DNA of 64,000 bases, from assembly GCF_003337735.1 (NCBI RefSeq), contig NZ_QPJY01000009.1, positions 62,001-126,000 of the forward strand, read 5' to 3'. The translations under genes were made by a program, and so were the position numbers. Every line of letters begins with the position of its first letter. Positions within the stretch are counted from its first letter, which is position 1. Below are positions 14,175-59,081 of this stretch, in pieces. Origin of the DNA: Thioalbus denitrificans. Its GTDB lineage: Bacteria > Pseudomonadota > Gammaproteobacteria > DSM-26407. The notes beneath the pieces were generated by a model, which worked only from the letters and a program-made list of their open reading frames with translations, was not told the origin of the DNA and did not search any database.

Positions 14175-14341
14175 GTGAATGCGTGAATGCGTGAATGCGT
14201 GAGTGCGTTGGTACGTAGGGCCGGATTCATCCGGCCGGGCAGGGCGTCGGTTCCTGGCTGTTCCTGTGCAGATGAATCTGCACCTACAATCCCTTACCCC
14301 TTACCCCTTACCCCTTACCCCTTACCCCTTACCCCTTACCC
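14175..14341. repeat. composite short-tandem-repeat island
   Basis: This non-coding gap contains four kinds of repeat. GTGAATGC/GTGAGTGC octamers lie at about 14175-14207. A copy of the GTAGGGCCGGATTCATCCGG element starts at 14215. A perfect palindrome, GTGCAGATGAATCTGCAC, lies at 14266-14283. About seven CTTACCC heptamers lie at 14292-14341. The same octamer and GTAGGGCC words recur near 27850, 29489 and 48034-48229. Confidence 0.85.
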
Positions 14342-14348
14342 CCTGGCC

Positions 14349-15851
14349 TTACATCCCGCCGGGGGCGGGCAGGGCCGGGAACGGCCCCAGGTACTCCCGC
14401 GTCCACCAGTCTCCCGTCTCCGCGCGGGTCCTCGCGTCGGTGAAGCGATAGCGCCACAGGCTCGCCCGCAGGAACCGCGGCGGCGCGCCGGGGAAGGGGT
14501 TCTCCGCCAGCAGTCCGGTGACCGCCGGGCTATTCTCCCGCAGCCGCTCCAGGAAGCGTCCGTACCAGTTCCAGTTCACCGGGTGTCCCAGGGGCACGAA
14601 CCAGATCATCCAGTCCAGCCGCGGCTGGCGGGGGATGACCACCGCCGGGCGCCGGGCCGGGTCGCCGGGCTTGTAGCGGAAAACATAGGGACGCCAGCTC
14701 CGCCCGTCGCGGGAACCCTCGATGCGGATCTCCAGCCGCTCGGTGAGCATGTTGGGGAAGACGTGGTAGCGGTTGGCGATGCGCCAGGGCTGCAGCCAGC
14801 CGGCCAGCGCCGCCAGCGGGGCGGGGGCCGGACGCTGGAGGATCATCTCGCCCGCCAGGGTGGCGCTCACCGTCACCAGCAGCAGCGCCATTGCGCCGAG
14901 GCCGGCGGCCCGTAGAACGCTCCCGATGCCGCCGCGCGGGAGCGCGGGGTGCAGGGCGAGGCGCCGCGCGAGTGCGACGGGCACGACCCGGCGCAGGGCC
15001 CGGTCGTCGAACAGGAACAGGCACAGGACGATGGTGAGCAGGTTGAAGAAGTTGTGGTTGCTGGTGAGGATGATGAGCAGCTGCATGGCGATGGTCGCCC
15101 AGGCGGCGAACAGCCGCCAGGGACGCGGCAGGAACATCATGAAGGGCACCACCAGCTCGGTGAACAGCGCCGCACCGGTGCCGGCCCGCAGCAGCCACTC
15201 GGGCAGCTGGTGGGCGTACCAGCTGCCCACGTGGGGCAGCGGCTGGGTCTCGAAGTAGTGGTTCAGGGCCGTCAGGCCGGCCCAGGAGGGATCGCCGCTC
15301 ACCAGCTTGGAGATGCCGGACAGGAAGCGCAGCCGGAACAGCAGCCAGCGGTAGAGCCAGATCACCACCCGCGACCCCCCGGGCAGGAAGATGCCCAGGA
15401 AACCCGCCTCCAGCAGCAGGTAGTCCCACTGGAAGTTCATGAATACCTGGCCGGCGTGGAACAGGGACAGGTAGAGGGCGAACAGGGCCGCCAGCGCCAG
15501 GCGCGGAAAGATGTTCAGCAACAGCAGCAGGGAGAAGCCGCAGCCGGCCACCGCGGCGGCGCGCAGGGCGCCGTCGCCGGCGTCGATCCAGAACAGGGTT
15601 GGCAGCTGCAGGAAGCACCATGCGCCGTGCAGGGCCTCCGCCGCCCGCAGCTGGTCGGTGAACGGCAGGATGCCCTGGCTGCCGGCCAGGCCGGTGATCT
15701 GCCCCGCCAGCGAGGCGAAGGCGGCGAGGTAGACCAGGGCCAGCAGGCACAGGAACAGTCCGCTGATCAGCCGGTAGTCTTCCGCCGGCCGCGCGGCCGC
15801 GGCGATTGCGCCGCGCAGCCGCGTAGCGGGTGTGGATCGGGTCACGCTCAT
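14349..15851 (-). CDS. lipase maturation factor (LMF1)-family membrane protein
   Basis: The protein has 500 residues. The N-terminal two thirds are highly hydrophobic with at least eight membrane segments and the family signature around GQVFMNFQWDYLLLEAGFLGIF and RLRFLSGISKLVSGDPSWAGLTAL. The C-terminal third is soluble, with RLEIRIEGSRDGRSW...YKPGDP and PRQPRLDWMIWFVPLG, ending in the WWTREYLGPF motif. This is the bacterial version of the LMF1/DUF1222 family, whose bacterial role is unknown. The ATG at 15851 gives the usual length; an in-frame ATG at 15896 is possible. It is not obviously tied to the hydrogenase genes. Confidence 0.85.
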   Translation of the reverse strand: MSVTRSTPATRLRGAIAAAARPAEDYRLISGLFLCLLALVYLAAFASLAGQITGLAGSQGILPFTDQLRAAEALHGAWCFLQLPTLFWIDAGDGALRAAAVAGCGFSLLLLLNIFPRLALAALFALYLSLFHAGQVFMNFQWDYLLLEAGFLGIFLPGGSRVVIWLYRWLLFRLRFLSGISKLVSGDPSWAGLTALNHYFETQPLPHVGSWYAHQLPEWLLRAGTGAALFTELVVPFMMFLPRPWRLFAAWATIAMQLLIILTSNHNFFNLLTIVLCLFLFDDRALRRVVPVALARRLALHPALPRGGIGSVLRAAGLGAMALLLVTVSATLAGEMILQRPAPAPLAALAGWLQPWRIANRYHVFPNMLTERLEIRIEGSRDGRSWRPYVFRYKPGDPARRPAVVIPRQPRLDWMIWFVPLGHPVNWNWYGRFLERLRENSPAVTGLLAENPFPGAPPRFLRASLWRYRFTDARTRAETGDWWTREYLGPFPALPAPGGM

Positions 15852-15924
15852 GGCGACATCGGTTTGGCGGAGTGGAGCCGTGCCTGTCTTCAGCATGGAC
15901 CCGCGCGGCGCAGCCCGCCAGTGT

Positions 15925-16149
15925 TCAGCCGCAGCAGTCGCTGCGGGATTGCTGGATGGGCGGGCAGGGGACATCCCCGTAGGAACAGAACACGCAGCAG
16001 TCGCCGGGCTGCGGGCGCAGCAGGGCGCCACAGCCGCGGCACTCGTAGAAGAACTGGCAGGCGTCGGTGGGCATGGTCTCCGTCGCCTGGTGTCCGCACT
16101 CGGGGCAGGTCAGGGTGGAGCGGAGCCGGAGCGGAGTCGGTTCGGACAT
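15925..16149 (-). CDS. GDCCVxC-domain small cysteine-rich protein (Cys form)
   Basis: The protein has 74 residues with nine Cys: a CPECGH knuckle, a CRGCG knuckle, the family motif GDCCVFCSYGDVPCPP, and a terminal CCG. The family is known as GDCCVxC (seleno)proteins because some members have selenocysteine; here every motif position is encoded by a Cys codon. It is a probable zinc-ribbon or thiol-redox protein of unknown role. The ATG at 16149 has GGAG upstream. It follows the hynL terminator, so it may be outside the hydrogenase transcript. Confidence 0.8.
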   Translation of the reverse strand: MSEPTPLRLRSTLTCPECGHQATETMPTDACQFFYECRGCGALLRPQPGDCCVFCSYGDVPCPPIQQSRSDCCG

Positions 16150-16188
16150 GGCGGTCTCCATGCGGGGCGCGGCCGGATAGCCGGAAAC

Positions 16189-16220
16189 GAGGAAAGGCCG
16201 CCCGGGGGCGGCCTTTCCTC
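16189..16220 (-). terminator. terminator hairpin downstream of hynL
   Basis: A perfect 15-bp stem (16189-16203 with 16206-16220) around a 2-base loop, GC-rich at the tip with an AAAGG/CCTTT base. It lies 31 bp past the hynL stop and just before the GDCCVxC gene on the same strand. The U tract is weak. Confidence 0.65.
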
Positions 16221-16250
16221 GGGCTGCGGCATGGGCCGCAGGCCGGGGGG

Positions 16251-17999
<1,749 letters not shown>

Positions 18000-18020
18000 T
18001 GTTGTCAGGCTCCAGGGTCA

Positions 18021-19328
18021 TCAGGCTCCGGTGGATTCCGCTGCGGCCTTGGCGACCGGGTCGGACTCTTCGTCCTCCACCAGGTAGTCGGCCAGCAGCT
18101 CGGTGAGGCCCAGCACCTCCACGTCCATGTTGTAGTGCTCCAGCCCCTCCTCGAGGACGATGCGGCAGTTGGCGCAGGCGGTGACCATGGTGGTCACGCC
18201 CAGCTCCTCCAGCTGGCTCTTCTTGCGCTTGAAGGCCTTCAGCCGGAGCTCCTCGGCGCGTTCGTTCGCCGACACGCCGCCGCCGCCGCCACAGCACCAG
18301 TTCATCACGCCGTGGTCGTTCATCTCGCGGAAGTCCGTGGCCACCATGTTCAGCAGGTTGCGCGGCTGCTCCACCACGCCGCCGCGGCGCACGATCTGGC
18401 ACGGGTCGTGGAAGGTCAGGGGGATGTCCTTGTGGCCCCGGGTGCGCAACTTGCCCTGCCGGCGCAGTTCGTCGAGCACCTCCAGGATGTGCTTGACCTC
18501 GAAGGTGAAGGGCCGGCCCATGAGGTTGGGCCCCTCCCAGCGGATGGCGGAGAAGGCGTGGCCGCACTCGGGGCTGATCACCGTCTTCACCTTGAGCTTC
18601 TCGGCGGCGTTGACGATGCGCGAGACGATCTCCCGGGCGATGTCCGAGGCGCCTATCTGGATGCCGCTGTTGGTGGCCTCGAAGGCGTCGGAGGAGAGCG
18701 TCCAGGTGACCCCCGCCTGCTTGAAGATGCGCGCCAGGGCGGCCAGGTACTCGGGGAAATTGATGATCTCCATGGAGGAGAGCAGCGGCATGTACTCCAC
18801 CCCCTCCTGGTCCACGGGAATCTCCAGCCCGGTGTCGGCCTGCACGTGCTTGATCTGGGCCTGCACGGCCGGCCACTTGACGCCCATGGGGCTGCCGATG
18901 GTCACGGTGCGTTTGGTGGCGCCGATGACGCCCTCGGGCGCGTGGCCGGCGGCCGACATGCCCTCGCGCATCTTGCGCACCATGTAGGCGATGTCGTTGC
19001 CCACCGGGCAGACCATGGAGCAGCGTCCGCACAGGGTGCAGCTGTCATAGACCAGTTCGGACCACTCGGCCAGCTCCTCGTCGGTCACCGCCTTGGACAG
19101 GCCCACCAGCTTGCCCAGCCTGCCGAACAGGGTGTACTCCTGCTTCCACGTCCGGCGCAGGGGCTCGAGCTTGTGGATCGGGGTGTACTTCGGATCGCCG
19201 GTCTCGGTGTAGAACAGGCACGCCTCGGCGCACAGGCCGCAGTGGACGCAGCTCGAGAAGAAGCTGGCGATGGGGGCATCGAGCACCTCGCGGAAGGCAT
19301 TGATGCCGCGTTCGAATGAAGCACTCAT
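18021..19328 (-). CDS. isp2: Isp2: HdrD-like iron-sulfur protein of the hydrogenase
   Basis: The protein has 435 residues. Two N-terminal [4Fe-4S] motifs, CVHCGLCAEAC and CTLCGRCSMVCP, are followed by two CCG-type halves, with SPECGHAF in the first and HDPC...NWCCGGGGG in the second. This is the heterodisulfide-reductase-D-like fold. With the Isp1 cytochrome b it is thought to link HynSL to the quinone pool or a cytoplasmic thiol/disulfide reaction. A close paralogue, nearly identical around EACLFYTETGDPKYTPI, ends the formate dehydrogenase operon at 57813. The ATG overlaps the stop of the 69-codon repeat ORF. Confidence 0.92.
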   Translation of the reverse strand: MSASFERGINAFREVLDAPIASFFSSCVHCGLCAEACLFYTETGDPKYTPIHKLEPLRRTWKQEYTLFGRLGKLVGLSKAVTDEELAEWSELVYDSCTLCGRCSMVCPVGNDIAYMVRKMREGMSAAGHAPEGVIGATKRTVTIGSPMGVKWPAVQAQIKHVQADTGLEIPVDQEGVEYMPLLSSMEIINFPEYLAALARIFKQAGVTWTLSSDAFEATNSGIQIGASDIAREIVSRIVNAAEKLKVKTVISPECGHAFSAIRWEGPNLMGRPFTFEVKHILEVLDELRRQGKLRTRGHKDIPLTFHDPCQIVRRGGVVEQPRNLLNMVATDFREMNDHGVMNWCCGGGGGVSANERAEELRLKAFKRKKSQLEELGVTTMVTACANCRIVLEEGLEHYNMDVEVLGLTELLADYLVEDEESDPVAKAAAESTGA

Positions 19329-19534
19329 GACGCCACCTCCGTAAGACGGTTCCCATTGTTCATGACGCCGCTGTTCATGACGCCGCTGTTCATGACGCCG
19401 CTGTTCATGACGCCGCTGTTCATGACGCCGCCTCCGTTGGGGGAGTGCGGGTTGAGGGGGCGATCCGGTCGGCGGCCGGCGTCATTCACGGCCGTTCGCA
19501 TCCCCGCTGCGCGGGGCCCCTGCTCTCTGATCAT
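19325..19534 (-). CDS. 69-residue repeat ORF wedged between isp1 and isp2
   Basis: The ATG at 19534 overlaps the isp1 stop as ATGA, and its TGA overlaps the isp2 ATG as ATGA, so ribosomes could pass through all three genes. The product starts MIREQGPRAAG, then a Pro/Arg-rich stretch, then GVMNS repeated five times (last copy GVMNN), and ends TEVAS. Isp1 itself ends KGVAS, so both ends match the same stop/start junction. There is no known domain. It may be a real small protein, a coupling spacer, or a by-product of junction duplication. Confidence 0.5.
   Translation of the reverse strand: MIREQGPRAAGMRTAVNDAGRRPDRPLNPHSPNGGGVMNSGVMNSGVMNSGVMNSGVMNNGNRLTEVAS
19358..19432. repeat. five tandem 15-bp repeats between isp1 and isp2
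   Basis: Five in-register copies of GTTCATGACGCCGCT (the last ends GCC) at 19358, 19373, 19388, 19403 and 19418. On the coding strand each unit reads GGCGTCATGAACAGC and so contains a GTCATGA resembling the isp1-stop/isp2-start overlap. Confidence 0.95.
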
Positions 19535-20196
19535 GACGCCACCCCCTTCCGGCCGGAGATGTCGCCGTTGTACCAGCGGGCGGCGAAGAGGCTGAAGGTG
19601 TGGAACAGCTTGGTGAAGGGCAGCGCCACCAGCAGCAGCTCCACGGTGAGGATGTGCAGCGCCAGCAGCAGGGTGTAGTTGAGGAACAGGTGGTGATAGG
19701 CCAGGTAGCCGGTCAGCAGCGGCAGCAGCGTCAGCGTCCAGGTGAGGTAGTCCTCGAAGGTGGAGAGGAAGCGCTTCACCGGGTCGGTGATGCGGTTGGC
19801 CAGCACCACGATGAGGGCGATGATGCTGATGATCGCCGCGGCGTCCACCACCGGGCTGGGCAGCCCCGGCCAGCTGAGGCCGATGAGGTTGCGGATGAGC
19901 TCGATGTGGGGCTCGAACAGCAGCACGGTGATGAACAGCCCGATGTGGAAGATGTAGCCGCCGATATAGGTGATCGGCGAGCGTTTCAGCATCCCCTCCG
20001 GGGGCAGGGAGCGGCCGAGGATGGTGCGGCCGCCCGAACCCCTGGACTCGGTGCGGGCGACGGCCAGGTCCGGCTTGCGTCCCAGGGAGTAGATCTCGAT
20101 GAGACGCAGCGCGATCCCGAACAGGAAGATGGCCACGGCGATGATGAAGCCGGGGCCGCGCACCCACGTGAGGAGGTCCATGGCAGTCGAACTCAT
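19531..20196 (-). CDS. isp1: Isp1: cytochrome b-like membrane subunit of the hydrogenase
   Basis: The protein has 221 residues with about five membrane helices and His residues at helix positions (YIFHIGLFI, LAYHHLFLNY, LALHILTVELLLV, TKLFHTFSLF), like NarI/HdrE haem b proteins. It should take electrons from HynS or Isp2 and reduce quinone. The ATG at 20196 is 2 bp after the hynS stop, with GGAG inside the hynS end. The last codons (GRKGVAS, then TGA) overlap the start of the repeat ORF. A paralogue lies at 57152. Confidence 0.9.
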   Translation of the reverse strand: MSSTAMDLLTWVRGPGFIIAVAIFLFGIALRLIEIYSLGRKPDLAVARTESRGSGGRTILGRSLPPEGMLKRSPITYIGGYIFHIGLFITVLLFEPHIELIRNLIGLSWPGLPSPVVDAAAIISIIALIVVLANRITDPVKRFLSTFEDYLTWTLTLLPLLTGYLAYHHLFLNYTLLLALHILTVELLLVALPFTKLFHTFSLFAARWYNGDISGRKGVAS

Positions 20197-20198
20197 GG

Positions 20199-21284
20199 CT
20201 ATTTCTCCAGGTCGTCGATGGTGACGGTTTGGTGCTTGGACTTGGCGTCGGCCTTGGCCTTGCGGTTGCGCATGGCCATGGCGGCCCCGGCGGCCACGCC
20301 CGCTGCGGCGGCGGCGCCGGCGACCAGGGTGACCGGGTCGTTGGGCACCGAGAGCGCCTTGTAGAAGCCGCCCATATCCCAGAAGTTCGGCTCGGAGCAG
20401 CCGATGCAGCCGTGGCCGGACTGGATGGGGAAGCTGGTGCCGGCGTTCCACTTGGTGGTGGCGCAGGCGTTGTAGGTGACCGGCGCCTTGCAGCCGAGCT
20501 TGAACAGGCACCAGCCCTTGCGCGCGCCCTCGTCGTCGAAGCTCTCGGCGAACAGGCCCTTGTCATAGAAGGGCCGGCGGTAGCAGCGGTCGTGGATGGT
20601 CTCGCCGTAGAAGACCTTCGGGCGGCCCACGGCGTCCAGTTCCGGGATGGTGCCGAAGGTCAGGTAATGGGCCAGCACGCCGGTGATGACCACCGGGATG
20701 GGCGGGCAGCCGGGCACGTTGATGATGGGCTTGTCCTTGATCAGGTCGCTCACCGCCACCGCGCCGGTGGGGTTCGGGTTGGCCTTCGGGATGCCGCCAT
20801 AGGCCGCGCAGGTGCCCACCGCGACGATGGCCGCGGCGCCCTTGGCCGTCTCCAGCAGCATGTCCTTGTTGCTGATGCCGGCGATGGTGGAGTAGCCGGG
20901 GTTGCCCAGCGGGATGGAGCCGTCGACGATGAGGAGGTACTTGCCGTAGTTCTCCTTCATGGCCTCTTCGCGGGCGTGCTCCGCGGCGCTGCCGGCGGCG
21001 GCCTGGAGGGTGTGGTGGTAGTCCAGGGAGATCTGGCCCAGGATCAGACTTTCCACGGTGGGCGAGTGGGAGCGGGTCAGCGACTCGGTACAGCCGGTGC
21101 ACTCCTGGAAGGAGAGCCAGATGACCGACGGTCGGCGGGCCTGCTCCAGGGCCGCGGCGATGGCCGGTACCATGCTGGGGGGCAGGGCCATGAGTGAAGC
21201 CGTGGTGGCGCAGAACTTCATGAAGCCGCGGCGGCTTACACCCTGGCGCCGGAGCGCTTCACCCAGGGTCTTGTCGTATGACAT
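20199..21284 (-). CDS. hynS: [NiFe] hydrogenase small subunit with Tat signal
   Basis: The protein has 361 residues. A Tat signal (SRRGFMKFC) is followed by a hydrophobic stretch ending near PAIAAALEQ. Fe-S ligands are visible in QECTGCTE, GTCAAYGG, GCPP, IHDRCYRR, FKLGCKAPVTYNAC and SGHGCIGCSEPNFWD, which supply a proximal, a medial [3Fe-4S]-like (CATTKWN, CIGC) and a distal cluster. A C-terminal hydrophobic segment (LVAGAAAAAGVAAGAAMAM) can anchor it, followed by a basic tail. It exports HynL by hitch-hiking and passes electrons to the Isp proteins. It is the first structural gene of the minus-strand cluster, 33 bp after the HyaF-like gene. Confidence 0.95.
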   Translation of the reverse strand: MSYDKTLGEALRRQGVSRRGFMKFCATTASLMALPPSMVPAIAAALEQARRPSVIWLSFQECTGCTESLTRSHSPTVESLILGQISLDYHHTLQAAAGSAAEHAREEAMKENYGKYLLIVDGSIPLGNPGYSTIAGISNKDMLLETAKGAAAIVAVGTCAAYGGIPKANPNPTGAVAVSDLIKDKPIINVPGCPPIPVVITGVLAHYLTFGTIPELDAVGRPKVFYGETIHDRCYRRPFYDKGLFAESFDDEGARKGWCLFKLGCKAPVTYNACATTKWNAGTSFPIQSGHGCIGCSEPNFWDMGGFYKALSVPNDPVTLVAGAAAAAGVAAGAAMAMRNRKAKADAKSKHQTVTIDDLEK

Positions 21285-27849: not shown

Positions 27850-28001
27850 AGATGCGTGAGTGCGTGAGTGCGTGAATGCGTGAGTGCGTGAATGCGTGAA
27901 TGCGTGAATGCGTGAGTGCGTGAAGGGTCAATGGATAATGGACAAAGGATAAAGGTGGCTGGAGCCGAACGGGGACGCTCTGAACACGGAACACGGAACA
28001 C
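27850..28001. repeat. GTGAATGC/GTGAGTGC octamer array and GAACACG heptamers
   Basis: About nine tandem octamers (27850-27924) follow the hypF stop. A short array of GAACACG heptamers lies at about 27981-28001, before the hypE leader. The hypF-hypE gap (28,000 region) is otherwise without a gene. Confidence 0.85.
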
Positions 28002-29361: not shown

Positions 29362-29577
29362 ACGGAACACGGAACACGGAACACGGAACACGGAACACGG
29401 AACACGGAACACGGAACACGGAACACGGAACACGGAACACGGAACACGGAACACGGAACCATCCGCACCGCGGCGCTCCGATTCGATGCCCTGCCCGGCC
29501 GGATGAATCCGGCCCTACGCACTGACGCACTCACCCACTCACGGACTCACGCACTCACGCACTCACGCACTCACCCA
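29362..29577. repeat. GAACACG heptamer array, GTAGGGCC element and octamer array
   Basis: Fourteen or so tandem GAACACG heptamers run from 29362 to 29460. A reverse-strand copy of the GTAGGGCCGGATTCATCCGG element lies at 29489-29518. CACTCACG octamers fill 29520-29577. The last octamers overlap the 3' end of the Rieske gene and provide its stop codon. Confidence 0.85.
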
Positions 29578-47980: not shown

Positions 47981-48229
47981 ATAGACGGGATTTACGGGAT
48001 CGAGAGGATATTTGGTGTTCCGTGTTCCGTGTTCCGTGAGTGCGTGAGTGCGTGAGTGCGTGAATGCATGAATGCGTGAATGCGTGAGTGCGTGAGTGCG
48101 TGAATGCGTGAATGCGTGAATGCGTGAATGCGTGAATGCGTGAATGCGTGAATGCGTGAATGCGTGAATGCGTGAGTGCGTGATGCGTGTGTTGTAGGGC
48201 CGAATTCATTCGGCCGGGCAGGGCATCGA
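47981..48229. repeat. composite repeat island downstream of aorE
   Basis: A partial left arm of the 9-bp family (47981-48010) is followed by three GTTCCGT heptamers, then about 18 GTGAATGC/GTGAGTGC octamers (48034-48186), and a GTAGGGCC element (48194-48229). The 517-bp aorE-DUF3305 gap holds no gene; its right part is the sigma-54 control region. Confidence 0.9.
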
Positions 48230-57130: not shown

Positions 57131-57151
57131 GGTTCCCTGGAGAGAGCGATC

Positions 57152-57793
57152 ATGTTTCTGGATTTCGTCGAAGGGCCCCTCTGGTACACGGCGGTGGCGG
57201 TGTTCCTGGTCGGGGTGGCCTGGCGCCTGGCGGCCATCGCCCGCGCCGGACTGAAGGACGACCTTTCGGTCCCGCGCACCTCGGGCACCCCGGGCGCCGT
57301 GGCGACCGTGTTCCGCCGCTTTCTGCCGCACCGGGAGTTCATGCGTCCCGCCGCGTTCCAGATGGTCGCGGGCTACGCCTTCCACATCGGCCTGTTCGTG
57401 CTGGTCCTGTTCGCCGCCCCGCACGTGGAGTTCATCGAGCAGCGCATCCTCGGTTTCGGCTGGACCCCGGCGCCCCACTGGGTGTTCCTGCTGGCGGCGA
57501 ATTTCGCCTTCGCCGGCCTGCTGCTGCTGTGGCTGCGGCGCATGCTCGACCCGGTGCTGCGGCGCATTTCGACCCTGGACGATCACATCGGCACCGGCCT
57601 GACCTTCGTGGTGATGTTCACCGGCTGCATGGCGCTGTTCGAATCCCATGACTTCCTGCGCGCCCTGCACATGCTGTTCGTGGATCTCCTGCTCATCTAC
57701 TTCCCCTTCAGCCGCCTGATGCACGCCTTCACCTTCATCTTCAGCCGCGGCTTCACCGGCGCCACCATGGCGCGCAAGGGGGTGAGCGCATGA
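57152..57793 (+). CDS. Isp1-like cytochrome b protein of the fdh operon
   Basis: The protein has 213 residues and is a paralogue of hydrogenase Isp1 (19531-20196). About five membrane helices carry matching His positions (YAFHIGLFVLVLF, FESHDFLRALHMLF, RLMHAFTFIF). It ends ARKGVSA where Isp1 ends GRKGVAS. It lies 21 bp after fdhC and 19 bp before an Isp2 paralogue, so the Isp1-Isp2 module has been attached to the formate dehydrogenase. Confidence 0.85.
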   Translation: MFLDFVEGPLWYTAVAVFLVGVAWRLAAIARAGLKDDLSVPRTSGTPGAVATVFRRFLPHREFMRPAAFQMVAGYAFHIGLFVLVLFAAPHVEFIEQRILGFGWTPAPHWVFLLAANFAFAGLLLLWLRRMLDPVLRRISTLDDHIGTGLTFVVMFTGCMALFESHDFLRALHMLFVDLLLIYFPFSRLMHAFTFIFSRGFTGATMARKGVSA

Positions 57794-57812
57794 ACCCCGA
57801 GGGAGCCCAGTC

Positions 57813-59081
57813 ATGAGTGAACGCTTCGAGCAGGGCGTGGCGGCGCTGCGGCGCCAGATGGACGCCCGCATCGTCTCCTACTTCTCCAGCTGCGTGCACT
57901 GCGGCCTGTGCGCCGAGGCGTGCCTGTTCTACACCGAGACCGGGGACCCGAAATACACGCCCATCTACAAGCTCGAGCCCATGCGCAAGCTGTGGCGCCA
58001 GGAGAACACCTTCTGGGGGAAGCTGGGAGTGAAGCTCGGCCTCACCGAGCCCCTCACCGAGCAGGACCTGGCCGACTGGGAAACCCTGGTCTACGACAGC
58101 TGCACCCTGTGCGGGCGCTGCTCCATGGTCTGCCCGGTGGGCAACGACATCGCCTACATGATCCGCAAGGAGCGCGAGGGCATGTCGGCGGCCGGCTACG
58201 CGCCGGACGGGATGAAGGAGGCCACCCGCCGGGCGCTCGAGATCGGCAGCCCCATGGGCGTCACCCTCAAGACCCTGCAGGCCACCCTCAAGGGGGTGGA
58301 GCGCAACACCGGCCTCACCATCCCGGTGGACGTGCAGGGGGCGGAGTACATGACCCTGTTCTCCTCCATGGAGGTGGTGAACTTCCCCGAGTACATCGAG
58401 AGCATCGCCCGCATCTTCGCCGCCGCGGGGGTCTCCTGGACCATCAGCAGCGAGGCGTTCGAGGCCACCAACAGCGGCATCCAGATCGGCGACTCGAAGG
58501 CCGCCGGCGAGCTGGTGGGGCGGGTGGTGTCCGCCGCCGAGAAGCTGGGCGTGCAGACTGTCATCAGCCCCGAGTGCGGCCACGCCTTCACCGCCATCCG
58601 CTGGGAGGGCGCCAACCTCATCGGCCGCCCGCTGCCGTTCAGGGTGATCCACATCCTCGAGCTGCTCGAGCAGCTCAAGGAGGAGGGGCGGCTGAAGCTG
58701 GAGGGGCAGACCGACATCCGCCTCACCTTCCACGACCCGTGCCAGATCGTGCGCCGCGGCGGGGTGGTGGAGCAGCCGCGGCAGCTGCTCCGGGAGGTGG
58801 CCCCCGGGTTCGTGGAGATGCGCGATCACGGCGTCATGAACTGGTGCTGCGGGGGCGGGGGCGGCGTCTCGGCCAACGAGCGGGCCGAGCCCCTGCGGCT
58901 GCAGGCGTTCCAGCGCAAGAAGAAGCAGCTCGACGAGCTGGGGGTCGAGACCATGGTCACCGCCTGCGCCAACTGCCGCATCATCCTCGAGGAGGGCATC
59001 GAGCACTACGGCATGGACGTGCAGGTCACCGGCCTCACCGAGCTCCTGGCGGAGCACCTGGCCGGGTCCGCCAGGTCCTGA
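57813..59081 (+). CDS. Isp2-like HdrD-type protein of the fdh operon
   Basis: The protein has 422 residues and is a close paralogue of hydrogenase Isp2. It shares FSSCVHCGLCAEAC, EACLFYTETGDPKYTPI, CTLCGRCSMVCPVGNDIAYM, SPECGHAFTAIRWEG and HDPC...NWCCGGGGG. It differs from Isp2 mainly in linkers and the shorter C terminus. It should accept electrons from formate via the b-type subunit and FdhB, or exchange them with a cytoplasmic partner. It is the last gene of the fdh transcript, with a hairpin after it. Confidence 0.9.
   Translation: MSERFEQGVAALRRQMDARIVSYFSSCVHCGLCAEACLFYTETGDPKYTPIYKLEPMRKLWRQENTFWGKLGVKLGLTEPLTEQDLADWETLVYDSCTLCGRCSMVCPVGNDIAYMIRKEREGMSAAGYAPDGMKEATRRALEIGSPMGVTLKTLQATLKGVERNTGLTIPVDVQGAEYMTLFSSMEVVNFPEYIESIARIFAAAGVSWTISSEAFEATNSGIQIGDSKAAGELVGRVVSAAEKLGVQTVISPECGHAFTAIRWEGANLIGRPLPFRVIHILELLEQLKEEGRLKLEGQTDIRLTFHDPCQIVRRGGVVEQPRQLLREVAPGFVEMRDHGVMNWCCGGGGGVSANERAEPLRLQAFQRKKKQLDELGVETMVTACANCRIILEEGIEHYGMDVQVTGLTELLAEHLAGSARS

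Follow-up and report, generated by a model that had tools for sequence, protein, structure and literature searches.

The 69-codon open reading frame (ORF) between isp1 and isp2 in a [NiFe] hydrogenase operon of Thioalbus denitrificans is probably, judged from sequence comparison, a copy, decayed and rearranged in tandem, of a dispersed palindromic element that enters the stop/start overlaps of operons in a form transparent to translational coupling. Stop/start overlaps are thought to be hardly tolerant of insertions, which uncouple genes. The element family appears to fill overlaps of this type in operons for basic functions (cell wall, tRNA charging, complex I) with the ribosome's path left open, and the filled and empty sites of close relatives would constitute natural experiments on coupling and on the site matching of a tiny element.

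The hydrogenase operon and its insert

The window, the whole 64,000-nt stretch of DNA that was analysed and to which all positions refer, carries the operon on its minus strand in the order [NiFe] hydrogenase small subunit, isp1, isp2 and large subunit. The small subunit gene is of the hynS/hydA type (20199..21284; TIGR00391, E=6e-129), isp1 encodes a TmcC/HmcE-like membrane electron-transfer subunit (19531..20196; its 3' end supplies the 5' arm of the outer stem described below), isp2 encodes the iron-sulphur subunit, a DsrK/HmcF-like Fe-S protein (18021..19328), and the large subunit gene lies at 16251..17999. The first-pass annotation had described a 69-codon ORF joined by ATGA overlaps to both neighbours and open across five 15-bp repeats; this is confirmed, with the ORF at 19325..19534 on the minus strand. 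Its peptide reads MIREQGPRAAG...GVMNSGVMNSGVMNSGVMNSGVMNNGNRLTEVAS*. The 3' end of isp1 is GTGGCGTCATGA, and the ORF starts within that ATGA; the 3' end of the ORF is again GTGGCGTCATGA, and isp2 starts within that second ATGA.

The five perfect 15-bp repeats (19357-19431, minus strand; Tandem Repeats Finder: period 15, 5.0 copies, 100% match) have the unit ATGAACAGCGGCGTC, and such an array is not a chance product. That each repeat contains the junction sequence, as had been noted earlier, was borne out: GGCGTCATGA occurs seven times within the isp1-isp2 junction, and GGTGGCGTCATGA is present at either end of the insert. A last-unit remnant (19329..19363, minus strand), which ends GGAACCGTCTTACGGAGGTGGCGTC and includes the Shine-Dalgarno-like GGAGG for isp2, is common to the window genome and a sister genome of the same genus, as is the terminal GGAACCGTCTTACGGAGGTGGC(G/C)TCATGA of the insert. 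A Pfam search of the ORF gave no family at or above the cut-off; a likeness to Pentapeptide_2 (E=0.006, below the cut-off) was rejected as a by-product of the 5-residue repeat. Elsewhere in the window, long tandem arrays of 7- and 8-bp units, perfect or nearly so and with up to 19.5 copies, lie at 14291-14342, 27852-27924, 29362-29459 and 48035-48189, and from these the T. denitrificans genome seems prone to tandem-repeat growth.

Two further features touch the operon. A second isp1/isp2-like pair lies ~38 kb away on the plus strand (57146-58210), with 38% and ~70% identity to the first and a 19-nt gap without the element at its junction; this pair is also found in the sister genome. Antisense to the hydrogenase genes runs a 1456-codon open frame (14949-19319, plus strand), which is probably a codon-phase by-product of the high GC content.

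Structure of the element

The ORF's opening ~65 nt recur in the nuoA-nuoB spacer of the same genome, where a DNA search and an exact hairpin pattern locate three tandem copies of 114 bp, and because of these copies the front of the ORF can be identified as a dispersed hairpin sequence. At the hydrogenase junction, unit 1 of the element spans 111 bp from one ATGA to the next (19424..19534, minus strand), as delimited by alignment with the same-genus loci L019 and L040. The conserved 80-nt hairpin core, counted with the host arm, lies at 19468..19547 (minus strand; covariance model R1, 99 bits). Its outer stem, P1, is 9 bp long. One side is the extreme 3' end of the upstream host gene, taking in the AT of the ATG that overlaps it; the other is an arm internal to the element. 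In the window the 5' arm, TGGCGTCAT, spans the isp1 end plus the first two letters (AT) of the element's ATG (19533..19541, minus strand), and the internal 3' arm, ATGACGCCG (19477..19485, minus strand), pairs with the isp1 end at nine of nine positions. The inner hairpin, P2, is CCCCGC-GCA-GCGGGG (19502..19516, minus strand).

Across the family P2 takes the form CCCCGC-nnn-GCGGGG, the loops between P1 and P2 are conserved in sequence, and the alignment of 13 units is nearly gap-free. The ~80-nt hairpin is followed by a ~45-nt tail, giving units of ~110 nt, every one of which carries a Shine-Dalgarno-like sequence and a stop/start overlap of its own. Both sides of stem pairs changed together 24 times, versus 6.6 in shuffled alignments and 2-6 with slid partners; on 99 rows the figures were 183 versus 46, in an alignment fitted to the covariance model. 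Folding of the whole 261-nt junction was no better than that of shuffles (z=0.26). Five loci (L189, L196, L203, L179 and L185) carry a nested second repeat of 19 additional codons, RAEGSLRSNGAPTGLLLA-like in some, which sits just 5' of the internal arm and maintains the frame. A related hairpin subfamily from the same families (L281, L289, L295, L301, L209 and L277) has another foot (CGGAGGGCGGAGCAGGGGCCCC...GGGGATG.GACCCCGGAGA).

Distribution and host contexts

Covariance-model searches found 2-10 copies in each of eight genomes. In the Gallionella family, 43 of the 150 genomes searched had the element; for the order the figure was 39 of 300, and for the class to which the window genome belongs it was seven of 274, its own genus included. 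Copy number is low, at 1-10 per genome, and the element-bearing genomes that could be named are mostly metagenome-assembled genomes (MAGs). Neighbours confirmed by HMM include nuoA-nuoB, metX-metW, glyQ-glyS, prpB, rnfB-rnfC, ftsW-murG and murD-ftsW, as well as murC, murE, dusB, rfbA, dctM and hypD; the remaining neighbours were identified by inspection. Oligopeptidase-like (prlC-like) genes, so named from a reading of the HEFGHG region and not from an HMM, contain six stop-free copies in frame, at two different places. Since the same junctions recur, some of the occupancy is inherited and the loci are not independent of one another.

Rfam covariance models run against the window junction and the searched element loci returned no relevant family, and the plasmid and phage collections searched with an 80-nt consensus-like element gave no match. 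A literature search on the peptide and the DNA core gave one unrelated text hit, and literature searches on repeat elements and on HEARO yielded no account of the family, which thus appears to have gone undescribed so far.

Filled and empty isp1-isp2 junctions

The sister comparison covers a single same-genus genome (L019/L040), whose Isp1 is 98% identical to that of the window genome. Counted from the GTC that precedes the first ATGA up to and including the second ATGA, the junction stretch is 435 bp in the sister and 213 bp in the window. The sister's insert is thus 222 nt (74 codons) longer, forming 143 open codons in the same frame as the window ORF, and it is made up of element units, the first of 111 bp, each starting GTCATGAACAGAGAGCAGGGGCCCC. 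Their 5' end is ATGAACAG and their 3' end CGGCGTC, and the 15-bp array is absent from this insert.

Among 80 scored isp1-isp2 junctions, 58 have the bare 4-nt overlap with no insert. The same element occupies this junction in six named beta-proteobacterial MAGs (Gallionella, Gallionellaceae, Thiobacillus and Sulfuricella), in several of them as two units, and in a close pair of Thiobacillus genomes the site is filled in one and empty in the other. Mapped onto a tree built from 96 Isp2 proteins, occupancy requires at least 14 changes (gains or losses), 12 of them forced by well-supported branches. From this distribution alone we infer that the element is mobile. Two relatives (L042 and L066) carry other palindromic repeats between isp1 and isp2, with an open frame that closes in an ATGA overlap; this junction tolerates several repeat types.

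These comparisons bear on the proposal, made in the first-pass annotation, that an ATGA junction was duplicated and amplified in place. A purely local origin of this kind would account for the seven copies of GGCGTCATGA and for GGTGGCGTCATGA at both ends of the insert, but we consider it very improbable, since the first ~65 nt match the hairpin repeat of the genome's own nuoA-nuoB spacer as well as many junctions in other genomes, and the sister genome has the units without the 15-bp array. The proposal stands for the 15-bp array itself and fails as an origin of the insert, which belongs to a family of dispersed elements. Under the reading as a decayed element, a second unit in the window genome would have lost its middle, fusing the unit ends into 15 bp (5' ATGAACAG plus 3' CGGCGTC), and the fused ends would then have multiplied by slippage in frame-keeping steps of 15 bp. 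Such collapsed and re-amplified unit ends would be the simplest history of the array.

Reading phase and peptide

Elements whose ATG (or GTG) overlaps the host stop comprise 89 units, and in 75 of these the mini-ORF closes in an NTGA overlap with the following open frame; the expectation for such a coupled end is ~0.11 (1/3 for phase times 0.33 for an open frame, from composition-shuffled inserts), and since related copies sharing a junction do not count as independent, 75/89 is not to be read as a formal probability. The length of the mini-ORF is most often 37 or 38 codons. Together with the sister insert, 222 nt longer and still in phase, these coupled ends strongly support the earlier suggestion that coupling phase was retained.

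The idea that the ORF is a young small gene found no support. A new small protein gene, born between isp1 and isp2 and kept for its peptide, would fit with the frame being open in both species of the genus and with the recurrence of an MSxEQGPRxAGM start across the family. Substitutions are, however, not concentrated at third codon positions. Of the seven that separate the sister species in unit 1, six affect the second codon position and one the third (in isp1, the third position takes 15 of 21). Family-wide, variability is lowest at the third position, with entropies of 0.69, 0.61 and 0.54 for positions 1-3. Where a single base of the P2 loop is altered, the copy encodes a different peptide (MSREQGPHVWGCERPR) and retains the ATGA overlap at its end, and no Pfam family reaches the cut-off for the ORF. 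We therefore give a peptide-based origin very little credence. What is kept in the element, as far as these sequences indicate, is the ribosome's path and not the peptide.

For the decayed element we propose the following hypothetical sequence of events, in which (i) a ribosome terminating isp1 at the UGA of AUGA would restart at the overlapping AUG; (ii) the restarted ribosome would read through the insert, repeats included, opening the hairpin; and (iii) it would terminate at the second AUGA and restart on isp2. With restart at both overlaps, the insert would be transparent to translational coupling. The stem may at the same time conceal the AUG from free ribosomes, in which case translation of isp2 should depend on ribosomes fresh from isp1. 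Copies that leave the ribosome's path open would survive, and others would be lost.

A host-matched outer stem

The internal arm of P1 is matched to the end of the particular gene that each copy follows. Over 55 distinct host ends, the arm forms on average 6.27 of nine Watson-Crick pairs with the host end, versus 4.42 (sd 0.15) when arms are permuted among loci, the maximum of 5000 permutations being 4.96; outside the 9 nt of the arm no complementarity was found. Because the covariance model rewards stem pairing, copies were also collected by a core-only pattern. The signal persists in that set (5.42 versus 4.06, sd 0.18; maximum of 5000 permutations 4.75), and an artefact of the covariance model was rejected as its source. 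In second units the match is weaker, with a mean of 4.95. The arm also matches at the in-frame prlC-like insertions and at junctions without an ATG, which argues that hiding of the start codon is not the sole cause.

Within P1, G.U pairs outnumber A.C mismatches (25 versus 11, p=0.03), a modest hint that pairing matters in the RNA. This excess, which is expected for pairing in the sense-strand RNA, the strong covariation of the stem and the position of the start codon within it would also suit a conserved cis-regulatory RNA that sets downstream translation in selected operons and is inherited and not mobile. We regard this as unlikely, since the host genes share no common function, occupancy has changed at least 14 times at a single junction, and copies lie inside coding sequence.

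The arm match could have arisen by templating or choice at insertion, by later quasi-palindrome correction, or by selection on the RNA. Speculatively, and as a possibility that we do not favour at present, the 9-nt arm may specify its target or be copied from it: the element would either enter by pairing with the host gene's end or write the complement of that end into itself, and every copy would in this way come to match its own stop/start overlap. If so, the element would represent guided or templated insertion in minimal form, combined with transparency to coupled translation. Short direct repeats from the host junction flank the element; they are more alike than expected by chance, with 4.25 of seven positions identical versus 3.31 (sd 0.12), and are perfect in a few copies. 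They resemble a target-site duplication, although selection on the Shine-Dalgarno sequence and the start codon may contribute.

Relation to known systems

Going by their descriptions, the Rickettsia palindromic elements (RPEs) are the nearest known kind; the cited accounts portray them as short DNA palindromes that have an open frame and are placed such that translation proceeds across them (Ogata et al. 2000, 2002, as reviewed in PMC10969869). The present element is likewise dispersed, palindromic and open-framed, and a minority of its copies lie in frame within protein genes. Its main sites, however, are stop/start overlaps and not gene interiors, and it further differs in having a host-matched outer stem and a low copy number, in belonging to a different lineage, and in carrying a Shine-Dalgarno-like sequence and a stop/start overlap in each unit. 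As a general mechanism, termination-reinitiation at ATGA overlaps is established by the work cited (PMC6728339, PMC10666635). It is to this class that the host junctions belong, and the 4-nt overlap is recreated at each end of the insert; in contrast to such gene pairs, a hairpin mini-ORF of ~37 codons is interposed between the coupled genes.

Similar to miniature inverted-repeat elements (MITEs), the element is short and has no transposase of its own, and the direct repeats at its ends may be a target duplication; it differs in being complementary to the host gene that flanks it. REP/BIME sequences and RAYT-associated palindromes are also small GC-rich hairpins, mostly intergenic and sometimes tandem. 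The element departs from these in its variable, host-matched stem and preserved reading phase, and in place of a fixed foot of the GTAG/CGTC type, which was not encountered, its foot varies with the host site. Mobilisation as a REP-type repeat by a RAYT/Y1 transposase is in keeping with a short imperfect palindrome located mostly in gene junctions and with positive results in 11 of the 13 genomes tested for a Y1 transposase. Yet the outer stem follows the host site, and a Y1 match is absent from the element-bearing genomes G056 and G058 (one of them with ~10 matches to the element; both drafts), so that REP/RAYT mobilisation is probably not generally required, and we consider it highly improbable as an explanation.

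Annotated genes of 35-75 codons at stop/start junctions may themselves be elements of this kind. As a separate observation, in sdhA-like genes (L139 1501-1723, L258 and L267) the element lies 3' of a partial duplicate of the gene start and the gene restarts after the insert, the unit period in L139 being 144 bp.
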